Notes under the pieces: model-generated | What the model was told of the DNA's origin: nothing | Database searches by the model: none | What the model saw: the letters and a program-made list of their open reading frames with translations, nothing else | In this document: in pieces, positions 3,394 to 11,182 of the stretch | How positions within the stretch are numbered: the first letter of the stretch is position 1 | Layout: the number at the start of each line of letters is the position of its first letter | NCBI GenBank assembly: GCA_902517505.1 | Contig: CABYCL010000001.1 | Location: 1-64,000, forward strand | Source of the DNA: an uncultured SAR86 cluster bacterium | Lineage (GTDB): Bacteria > Pseudomonadota > Gammaproteobacteria > Magnimaribacterales > D2472 | Length of the DNA stretch: 64,000 bases | Direction: 5' to 3' | Made by a program: the position numbers and the translations under genes

Positions 3394-3469
3394 GCCCAGA
3401 TAGCTCAGTTGGTAGAGCAAAGGACTGAAAATCCTTGTGTCGGTGGTTCGATCCCACCTCTGGGCACCA
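3394..3469 (+). tRNA. tRNA-Phe (anticodon GAA), CCA encoded
   Basis: Cloverleaf: GCCCAGA acceptor/TCTGGGC, D-arm GCTCAGTTGGTAGAGC, anticodon stem AAGGA/TCCTT with loop CTGAAAA, T-arm GGTGGTTCGATCCCACC, ACCA end. Confidence 0.97.
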
Positions 3470-3471
3470 TT
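3424..3471 (+). repeat. Left copy of 48-bp direct repeat (inside intact tRNA-Phe): putative att site
   Basis: ACTGAAAATCCTTGTGTCGGTGGTTCGATCCCACCTCTGGGCACCATT identical to 4565-4612. Confidence 0.95.
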
Positions 3472-3496
3472 CTTACAGGGTTTTTCAAGATTTAAG

Positions 3497-3567
3497 TTTT
3501 AACACACATTAACACACTGCTTTCTTTGAGATTTAGTGTGTTAGATTTAACACACTTTTTAACACAT
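3497..3567. repeat. Cluster of five TTAACACA-type repeats (four direct, one inverted)
   Basis: ttttaacacaca 3497-3508, attaacacact 3508-3518, tagtgtgtta 3534-3543 (inverted), tttaacacact 3546-3556, ttttaacacat 3557-3567. Confidence 0.85.
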
Positions 3568-3596
3568 CATAATTTTGGCATACTTATAAATCATAT

Positions 3597-4553
3597 ATGA
3601 AAATCCAATACATCCTATCATCAGTCCTTTTAGTTTTGCCTTTATACATAACGGGCAATGTTGAGCAAGACTATAAAAAAGATGCTCTTTGTGTCGAGGT
3701 ATTTACAGAAGGAATTGGTTGGACTCATACTTTTGGTGAAGGTAGATGCCCTGCTGGTTCAAATAAAGATGAGTATTCTCAAAAATTAAAAAAAATTGAT
3801 TCAATCGTAGAAGTTGGCAATAGTGCTCAACAAGCAGTTGTTGCTATAGGAGAAGTTCTTCGACAAAAAAGAATTATCGATAGTCTAAATAAAAATCAAA
3901 TTATAAATAAATTTAGATTTTCCACTATAAATGAAAACAATAAGAACAAAATGGGTGAAGATTTTTTTAAGTTGCTTACGAAAAGAAATACCAAACTATC
4001 AGTTGGTATTGGTGAAGTAATAGTTTTTATTACAGAAGGAAGTATCCAAGATTGTTACATACCAAAATTTGAAACAAACTATCCATACAAAAGTGGTAAA
4101 TGGTTTATTTTAAGCAATCAACCTGTATGTAATATACCTGGAGAAAATTTAAAATATTTTTATCCGTTTTATTCTAATGAAGAACAACCATCATATAACT
4201 CCATTCATCCAGTTACATTTGACTACAAAAAAAAGAAAGACCTGTACAAAATTTGTGTAAAGGTTTCACAAAAAATAGCATGTAAAGATAAGGCAAAATT
4301 AGATATAGATTTTGAAGATTCTCAAGGTTTTGTCTACAACATACAATCTCCAAAAAGAATGGTGATTGTCTCAAAAATTGAAAATGACTTAATTGAAGTT
4401 GTTGAATCCTATTATGATGAAGATTTAAAAGATTACATAGATGCTCCCAGAAAGATCAATATTAATGATGAGAAAATCTTTACATCTTTTGATCAAAAGA
4501 TTGAATTTATAGAAATACAAAATAATCAATTAATATACAAAATTATTGATTAG
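3597..4553 (+). CDS. Hypothetical exported protein, sole ORF of the putative element
   Basis: 318 aa with N-terminal signal-like segment MKIQYILSSVLLVLPLYITG; several Cys; no family recognised. Confidence 0.75.
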   Translation: MKIQYILSSVLLVLPLYITGNVEQDYKKDALCVEVFTEGIGWTHTFGEGRCPAGSNKDEYSQKLKKIDSIVEVGNSAQQAVVAIGEVLRQKRIIDSLNKNQIINKFRFSTINENNKNKMGEDFFKLLTKRNTKLSVGIGEVIVFITEGSIQDCYIPKFETNYPYKSGKWFILSNQPVCNIPGENLKYFYPFYSNEEQPSYNSIHPVTFDYKKKKDLYKICVKVSQKIACKDKAKLDIDFEDSQGFVYNIQSPKRMVIVSKIENDLIEVVESYYDEDLKDYIDAPRKININDEKIFTSFDQKIEFIEIQNNQLIYKIID

Positions 4554-4564
4554 TCGATAATGCC

Positions 4565-4612
4565 ACTGAAAATCCTTGTGTCGGTGGTTCGATCCCACCT
4601 CTGGGCACCATT
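4565..4612 (+). repeat. Right copy of 48-bp direct repeat (tRNA-Phe 3' fragment): putative att site
   Basis: Perfect copy of 3424-3471; preceding bases differ, so no 5' tRNA half is present. Confidence 0.95.
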
Positions 4613-4696: not shown

Positions 4697-5176
4697 ATGA
4701 AATTAATATACCTATTAAACTTTCTCATTTCAGCAAATATATATGCTGGTGTATTATTAAATGAAATATTAGTGGATGAATTTACTGATGAAGAATCTGT
4801 TGCATTAACCTTTACTGCAGATGAGGATTTTGAAGTTTTCCGAAAATGGGGTCAAATAGTTTGTAATGAAGGTTCTTTATTGCTGGGAATTGAAGATACA
4901 GATTCTTGGCATTTCGAAGATTACATTAAAGTGAAGTTTAGGTTTGATAAAAATCAGCCATTTGAATATCAATTAAATTTTGATACAGATTCCTCATTTG
5001 CTTATACATATTCTGAGGAAATAATATTCACAGTTCTTGATGAATTAAAAGGCTCTCGAAGCTTTTTAATCCAGTTAGAAGATGCTGATGTTCCAATGAG
5101 ATTTACTGATATTTATGATTCTGAAGGAAAAGTGAATAAATTTTTAGAAACTCTCCTTACAAAGTCTGATTGCTAA
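4697..5176 (+). CDS. Hypothetical exported protein
   Basis: 159 aa, signal-like MKLIYLLNFLISANIYA; no firm family assignment. Confidence 0.65.
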   Translation: MKLIYLLNFLISANIYAGVLLNEILVDEFTDEESVALTFTADEDFEVFRKWGQIVCNEGSLLLGIEDTDSWHFEDYIKVKFRFDKNQPFEYQLNFDTDSSFAYTYSEEIIFTVLDELKGSRSFLIQLEDADVPMRFTDIYDSEGKVNKFLETLLTKSDC

Positions 5177-9974: not shown

Positions 9975-11182
9975 ATTTCTATTCCAAAATGGGCCATCTC
10001 AACAGAAGTTGTAAATACATTCATAGCATCAGCTAACTCATCTTTTGTTACATATGTCGGAGCAATTCTAATAACGCTATCATTAGGATCATAATTTTTA
10101 GGAAATGTTGATCCAGCAGGTGTTATTAAAACCCCCATTTCTTTACACAACTCAACAACTTTTGTGGCTATAGGCTTTGAGGTTGAATAAGTAATAAAGT
10201 ATCCACCAGTAGGTCTTGAAAAAGTTCCACACTCCTCAGGTAATTTTTCTAAATATTCATATGCTAATTCAAATTTAGGTCTAATTAATTTAGCATGTTT
10301 TTGCATATGTGATTTAACTGTTGCGGCATCTTTAAAAAACTCTACATGTCTTTTTTGATTTAATTTATCAGGACATATAATCATTGTTGTTCTTACTTTT
10401 TTAATTAAATCCATTGAATGTCCTGATGTCGCCATAAATGAAATACTACCTCCACCAAATGTTACTTTTGAAAAAGAAGTTGTTACTACAGTTTGATCTT
10501 GCACATTAGACTCCTCAACAACTTGCCATAAGGGTTTTTGTTCAGGAGTAGGCAAAAAATCATGAATTAGATAGGCATGATCAAAAAGGAATAAGAATTT
10601 ATTAGAATAATTAGACCCTATTTCGAACATTCTTTGAAGATTGTCATCAGAATATATTTCTCCCGATGGATTAGAGTGTTTTGGAACACATAAAATTCCA
10701 ACAAAGTCTTCGTCATCTTTTAGGGCTTCTTCAAAGGCGAGTAAATCTATTCCATCTTCTTTAAGAGGAATTGGTACTGCTTCTATGCCAAAGTCATCAA
10801 GCATCATAAAATGCCTATCGAACCCAGGAACTGGACAAACAAATTTAGGATTTTTTATATCTTTCCAGGGTATTGGGTCTGCAAAAAGATAATTTGAAAG
10901 AACTGTTTGATAGGCAAGCAATAAACTGGACTGCTCTCCTGCTAAGATATTTTCAATAGGAGCATTAAGTAATTCGGACCCTAATCTTCTTGCCTCTATA
11001 ATTCCAAAAGGTTCTCCATAATTCCTTAAATCTATTCCATCTTCAGATGATATTGGTATTGAAAGATCTATTAAGTCATTTGATAGGTCTAATTGTTCTT
11101 TATCTGGTTTACCTCTTGTAATATCTATTGATAATTGCTTCTCTTTAAGAGAATCAAACCTTGCTATAATTTCTTGGTGCAT
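9971..11182 (-). CDS. Aspartate aminotransferase-like PLP enzyme (class I/II, MocR-type aminotransferase fold)
   Basis: DITRGKPDKEQLDLS, LRNYGEPFG, VPKHSNPSGEIYSDD, TTSFSKVTFGGG (PLP lysine). Confidence 0.88.
   Translation of the reverse strand: MHQEIIARFDSLKEKQLSIDITRGKPDKEQLDLSNDLIDLSIPISSEDGIDLRNYGEPFGIIEARRLGSELLNAPIENILAGEQSSLLLAYQTVLSNYLFADPIPWKDIKNPKFVCPVPGFDRHFMMLDDFGIEAVPIPLKEDGIDLLAFEEALKDDEDFVGILCVPKHSNPSGEIYSDDNLQRMFEIGSNYSNKFLFLFDHAYLIHDFLPTPEQKPLWQVVEESNVQDQTVVTTSFSKVTFGGGSISFMATSGHSMDLIKKVRTTMIICPDKLNQKRHVEFFKDAATVKSHMQKHAKLIRPKFELAYEYLEKLPEECGTFSRPTGGYFITYSTSKPIATKVVELCKEMGVLITPAGSTFPKNYDPNDSVIRIAPTYVTKDELADAMNVFTTSVEMAHFGIEI

Follow-up and report, generated by a model that had tools for sequence, protein, structure and literature searches.

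Five copies of a short motif lie directly inside the left end of a 1,141-bp (1.1-kb) element at tRNA-Phe in a SAR86 bacterium, and comparison with relatives indicates that they are probably the arm-type (P') sites of a tyrosine integrase, carried by a single-gene cassette that has no integrase of its own and would be mobilised in trans. The DNA analysed (the window) is a stretch of 64,000 nt from a genome of 1.06 Mb in 28 contigs (83% complete; G000 among the genomes compared). As the motif recurs with the same spacing at the ends of tRNA-bounded elements, one of which carries an integrase, the copies are most likely docking sites for a recombination enzyme. Protein binding, mobilisation in trans and present-day activity are each what we infer here.

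A single-gene insertion at tRNA-Phe

Two exact 48-bp cores, 1141 bp apart, bound the element, the left core being part of the tRNA-Phe gene itself. A repeat that runs from the anticodon arm to the gene end is found with many tRNA-targeting tyrosine integrases. The features of the locus are as follows.

3394..3469, + strand: intact tRNA-Phe (GAA), the integration target (ARAGORN)
3424..3471, + strand: left core, spanning the tRNA 3' part from position 31 of the tRNA, in the anticodon arm, to slightly beyond CCA (exact 48-bp repeat)
3470..3498, + strand: conserved left-end scaffold TTCTTACAGGGTTTTTCAAGATTTAAGTT (alignment, pattern search)
3499..3506, + strand: arm-type motif copy 1, TTAACACA (pattern scan)
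3509..3516, + strand: arm-type motif copy 2, TTAACACA, 10 bp after copy 1 (pattern scan)
3535..3560, + strand: 9-bp hairpin, AGTGTGTTA-GATT-TAACACACT, then a T run (RNA fold, -10 kcal/mol, z -4.6)
3537..3544, - strand: inverted motif copy TGTGTTAG, 7/8 matching (sequence)
3547..3554, + strand: arm-type motif copy 4, TTAACACA (pattern scan)
3559..3566, + strand: arm-type motif copy 5, TTAACACA, 12 bp after copy 4 (pattern scan)
3576..3584, + strand: putative extended -10-like sequence TGGCATACT, just upstream of the cargo start (alignment)
3597..4553, + strand: cargo ORF, 318 aa, with a signal-peptide-like N-terminus (ORF translation)
4565..4612, + strand: right core, a direct repeat of the tRNA 3' part (exact 48-bp repeat)
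4697..5176, + strand: chromosomal ORF; in G003, the relative with an empty site, it comes immediately after tRNA-Phe (432 nt aligned, 82% identity)

The window matches G003 at 96.5% up to the tRNA end, and the chromosomal ORF found after the second tRNA fragment in the window directly follows the tRNA in that genome. Judged by this alignment, G003 is a syntenic empty site and the window element is an insertion. Its cargo ORF, whose stop codon lies 11 nt before the right core, had no match in Pfam and PHROG searches and no clear relative in the 202 other genomes of the order. A single candidate relative in G117 (E=4e-4) was set aside, as it adjoins guaA without a visible tRNA junction. The G117 island after guaA (L182) has repeats GAGTAGGGCAGA...TTTATCTATAAGGTAAACTAAA and ACAAACTAACAACAA around small ORFs, one of them this weak relative, and is possibly another type of cassette.

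The motif cluster and its occurrence in relatives

The earlier note had described four direct copies and one inverted copy, the first two 10 bp apart, and both the sequence and the pattern scan confirm this arrangement. The cluster begins 29 nt past the tRNA-Phe end, and all copies fall within the first 97 nt of the element, giving several phased copies of one short motif near a core. No copies lie beside the right core of the window cassette. On either strand of the 64-kb window, exact TTAACACA occurs only at these four sites, all within 3499-3566. A total of four is ordinary (3.1 expected); the clustering is the unusual part, with a probability of ~5e-9 that four randomly placed copies would all fall within 68 bp.

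We searched 203 genomes of the order (the SAR86 cluster) for the motif pair, defined as two TTAACACA copies at most 6 nt apart. There were nine matches in 7 of the 203 genomes, all at a tRNA-fragment boundary or next to the right core of one integrase-bearing element, in G043. The pair stands directly after tRNA-Phe in G000, G009, G124 and G128, and directly after tRNA-Ile in G102 and G156; the G043 pair adjoins the right core of an element at tRNA-Phe. The earlier note had raised the prospect that the cluster also occurs at empty tRNA-Phe loci or is widespread at unrelated positions. None of the fetched tRNA-Phe loci of relatives that lack a second fragment carries the pair, and the 203 genomes hold no paired motif at unrelated positions: the motif recurs at tRNA-Phe, at tRNA-Ile and, weakly, at tRNA-Met junctions. 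In a genome contig database an exact 19-mer gave three SAR86 matches, each directly after tRNA-Phe or tRNA-Ile; its matches in four unrelated genomes were put down to chance or low complexity.

A sequence model of the left end added G194 and G077 (tRNA-Phe), G159 (tRNA-Ile) and G134 (tRNA-Met, E=2e-4), the last being a weaker case in which the repeat of the element is the 5' half of tRNA-Met. The model gave no further confident matches, and the confident ones were all at tRNA junctions; those with E>0.003 looked like chance. Scaffold-pattern matches in G102:C120, G104, G001:C3, G178 and G054 were likewise rejected, lying inside coding sequence and distant from tRNAs. Searches of viral contigs with the 19-mer and with a pair-plus-inverted pattern returned unrelated matches only, phage records matched neither the left end nor the cargo, and plasmid records gave only short partial matches at the tRNA 3' core.

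Several odd elements were seen alongside. G134 (L177, ~10165-10241 and downstream) has TTAACACA-like copies beside a complete tRNA-Met, with the 5' tRNA half as repeat. Two more have little or no cargo: in G194 (L175, L178, minus strand) a degenerate second core stands 150 bp beyond the first, and G189 (L204) has two left ends of the same type in tandem, 266 bp apart.

Conserved left ends and exchanged cargo

Measured from the tRNA start, the five copies stand at 105+, 115+, 143-, 153+ and 165+ in G000, G009, G124 and G128 alike; copy 1 of G128, at the shared offset, has one mismatch. The cargo proteins of these four elements show no mutual similarity, and those searched against Pfam gave no family above the cut-off. 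In all four, the ORF begins at a distance of 121-127 nt from the core and ends 6-11 nt ahead of the following one. Altogether five cassettes share one architecture, in which an unrelated cargo ORF ends 2-11 nt before the core; for G156 no right core was located. Between G000 and G128, which belong to different genera, the left ends are 97% identical over 98 nt, as against 68% for a chromosomal gene, a contrast that fits either transfer of the module or very strong constraint on its sequence. Scaffolds resembling TTCTTACAGGGTTTTTCAAGATTTAAGTT precede other motif families in G004, G047, G117 and G189.

A two-ended layout in larger elements

In 11 of 21 elements at tRNA-Phe or tRNA-Ile, two motif copies stand in tandem with a 12-bp offset, the first of them beginning ~70 nt ahead of the right core. 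Ten of these right pairs are exact 8-mers and that of G024 has one mismatch, while an exact right-type pair at that position occurred in 0 of 2000 background windows. The motif varies by element (TATGAACAG, GTGAACAG, TTTGAACAG, TGTCCCCA, GTGCACAC or TTAACACA). In elements that have a left cluster too, its motif is identical or similar to the right one and mostly forms a pair spaced by 10-11 bp, with an inverted copy. The observed pairing of left and right motifs was reached by 2 of 5040 permutations, a test weakened by the possible relation by descent of G016 and G046. The element in G117, found by its left end alone, agrees out of sample, with copies at 29+, 39+ and 56- on the left, at -70/-58 on the right, and TATGAACAC as its motif. 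Fixed positions, combined with a sequence that changes in concert within each element, are what would be expected of sites read by one cognate DNA-binding protein.

The motif lies on both sides of the core in G043, G001, G004, G016, G046, G040, G102 and G117. In the single-gene cassettes, by comparison, the 12-bp pair (copies 4 and 5 in the window, spaced just as the right-arm pair is in larger elements) sits at the left, and there are no copies at the right. As the window cassette does not have sites on both sides of the core, we say that its cluster works like arm sites and call the cassette a variant.

The larger elements of G001, G004, G016, G040, G046 and G117 have methyltransferase or restriction-like genes, and none shows an obvious integrase. 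The tRNA-Phe gene of SAR86 relatives is a hotspot for such gene sets in two-armed elements (L036, L041, L064, L068, L072 and L203), where no integrase is obvious either. The first tRNA-Phe element of G012 (L052) has a normal right arm pair and a chromosome-like left end; with its SDR gene duplicated, it is a mosaic of element and flank.

An integrase with a matching motif

Each end of the G043 element at tRNA-Phe bears the TTAACACA motif, and the element includes a phage-type integrase gene, which adjoins attL. The element shares motif and core with the window element, not cargo. The integrase ORF (382 aa) matches PHROG_1 at E=1.8e-22 and, weakly, Pfam core-binding (SAM-like) domains; it has no PF00589 match, and LRP, LRHT and a late Tyr segment can be read from the sequence in the expected order. 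On these sequence features it is a phage-type tyrosine integrase. Sequence searches returned no relative in the PDB or among viral contigs. G043 belongs to another family of the order, and its integrase is the sole one of its kind in the 203 genomes, so that the pairing of this motif and core with a cognate integrase is seen in one example. A shared motif beside a tRNA-Phe integrase was what the earlier note had named as support, and the two ends of the G043 element provide it.

The host genome, at 83% completeness, yielded no helper gene; the two PF00589 genes it contains, and no others, are most likely XerC and XerD. With only Xer-like recombinases present, a helper would have to be supplied from outside or be encoded in the missing 17%. 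The analysis turned up no ICE or IME relative.

A sequence like the N-terminus of the G043 integrase was also seen in an unrelated setting. In genus g6 of family f4 of the order, the gene for a Rieske iron-sulfur protein, next to cytochrome b, encodes an N-terminal extension with 30-42% identity to the first 60-90 aa of the integrase (E down to 2e-12; L122-L134, e.g. L123:1009-1806(-), L130:1474-2295(+) and L133). The similarity makes it possible that an integrase DNA-binding domain was captured by a respiratory protein.

Proposed mechanism and alternative explanations

On the preferred reading the element is a single-gene cassette made up of a core, ~125 nt that serve recombination and promoter function, a lone ORF, and a second core 11 nt past the stop codon. 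A related element that bears an integrase, as the one in G043 does together with the motif at its two ends, would act as helper. The N-terminal domain of its integrase would bind the arm sites, perhaps sharing them with its excisionase, and draw attL to the core, which lies in the anticodon/T arm; the integrase would then excise or insert in trans a cassette that encodes no recombinase. The circular junction of the excised cassette would read cargo 3' end, core, TTCTTACAGGG. The earlier note had likened the cluster beside the att core to arm-type or excisionase sites, and at the level of sequence both the G043 element and the recurrence at tRNA junctions alone support that likeness; as to integrase or excisionase binding, the evidence fits either and the two cannot be separated by it.

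It is rather unlikely that the sites bind a helper-encoded excisionase (RDF) or regulator and not the integrase itself. Directionality factors bind inside att sites and near promoters (PMC11963761), and the cluster does adjoin the putative cargo promoter; the presence of the motif at both ends of larger elements, the fixed phasing, the inverted copies and the variation from element to element are nevertheless as for integrase arm sites, and no RDF gene was identified.

Because the single-gene cassettes have no right-end motif, unlike known two-armed attP sites, they could be immobile: dead deletion relics of larger two-armed elements in which the cluster has been passively retained from what was once an attL arm. 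G194 and G107 resemble such cargo-less or fused remnants. Against this origin, which we also consider improbable, stand the five cassettes of one architecture with unrelated cargo and the near-identical left ends in different genera, since independent decay is unlikely to have reached one design repeatedly.

The suggestion that the cluster is mainly a transcription signal, combining a terminator of tRNA-Phe read-through with operator or -35 elements that are repeated in the promoter of the cargo, is weaker still and in our view very unlikely. It draws on the hairpin at 3535-3556 formed by copies 3 and 4, whose core is kept in alignments with G009, G124 and G128, and on the -10-like sequence downstream of it, to which similar boxes occur in most aligned elements. 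A terminator scan of the window did not flag the hairpin, and the direct pair at 10 bp lies upstream of it and is left unexplained. So are the motif at both ends of the G043 element, the right pairs 70 bp before the core, the agreement of the motifs at two ends and the change common to all copies within an element; moreover, the pair is absent at tRNA-Phe loci without elements. Of the earlier concern that the cluster might merely be a terminator or promoter, one part stands, in that the hairpin could also terminate transcription, while a pure terminator leaves much unexplained. From its predicted fold, the hairpin may serve as an additional terminator that halts tRNA read-through, and the left module may combine recombination signals with expression signals whose promoter and terminator function we infer.

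The idea that the repeat arose by chance or that the tRNA end was simply duplicated, for which only the short AT-rich motif and its expected window count speak, is refuted by the tight clustering and by recurrence in other genomes only at tRNA boundaries.

Beyond the preferred reading of the copies as arm sites of an integrase acting in trans, we put forward tentatively, as a possibility and not as the expected outcome, that SAR86 has a pool of single-gene mobile cassettes of fixed plan, moved in trans by a mostly absent helper integrase, as a tRNA-based counterpart of integron cassettes. The plan would comprise a tRNA core, a one-sided module of arm sites and promoter, and an ORF 2-11 nt from the second core.

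Comparison with known systems

Integrase-less genes flanked by tRNA repeats are already known in streamlined aquatic bacteria, where their movement is mostly obscure. Here the recombination sites are directly readable, with fixed positions, a sequence particular to each element and one integrase with a matching motif, and the question of which integrase moves which cassette thereby becomes a testable matching problem. The cassettes also suggest that an element can shed all but one gene and a 125-nt module. In the literature searched, outside subscription journals, we found no description of arm clusters of this kind in SAR86.

In how it works, the cluster compares with the arm region of a tyrosine-integrase attP. 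The P and P' arms of phage lambda are such an attP with arm-type sites. In ICEMlSym(R7A), IntS uses five P sites in a 283-bp attP, all needed for efficient integration (PMC11963761). The window likewise has five copies of one motif beside the core, direct and inverted and specific to the element, with an integrase by attL in G043; it differs in having all copies on one side of the core and no integrase gene in the cassette.

An integron cassette consists of one ORF followed by an attC site that IntI recognises. The window element shares with such cassettes one ORF per unit, a stop codon tight against the recombination site and interchangeable cargo, whereas its core is a tRNA 3' part, its ORF is preceded by the site module and putative promoter, and there is no integron integrase. 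We rejected this assignment: only 11 nt separate stop codon and core, with no attC, and both host PF00589 genes are Xer-like.

Tycheposons, as summarised in PMC10872708, are 4-200 kb in size with a tyrosine recombinase; on that summary they too are tRNA-bounded cargo carriers of streamlined marine bacteria, and the window element, at 1,141 bp and without a recombinase, departs from them on both counts.

As an element, it comes nearest to CIMEs, the ssrA islands of Dehalococcoides and additive tRNA-repeat islands. CIMEs (cis-mobilizable elements; PMC5704250) and ssrA islands without an integration module (PMC3146451) lack integration and transfer genes and keep att sites, just as the window element has a single ORF, no recombinase or transfer genes, and exact 48-bp core repeats at both ends. 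Units accreted in tandem at a single RNA gene are a further likeness (G004, G012, G077, G102, G189; PMC5704250, PMC3146451). Unlike them, the window element is not evidently a decayed ICE or IME; it is ~1 kb long with one gene and combines a standard left module with exchanged cargo and one-sided arm sites. The additive flexible genomic islands of Methylophilaceae, which range from 330 bp to 42 kb and have tRNA 3' end repeats, are described in the available text of PMC10872708 without arm-site clusters or integrase partners; as in the window, where variable genes lie between tRNA 3' repeats at a fixed locus, they occur in streamlined aquatic bacteria and hold variable, mostly unknown cargo between such repeats.
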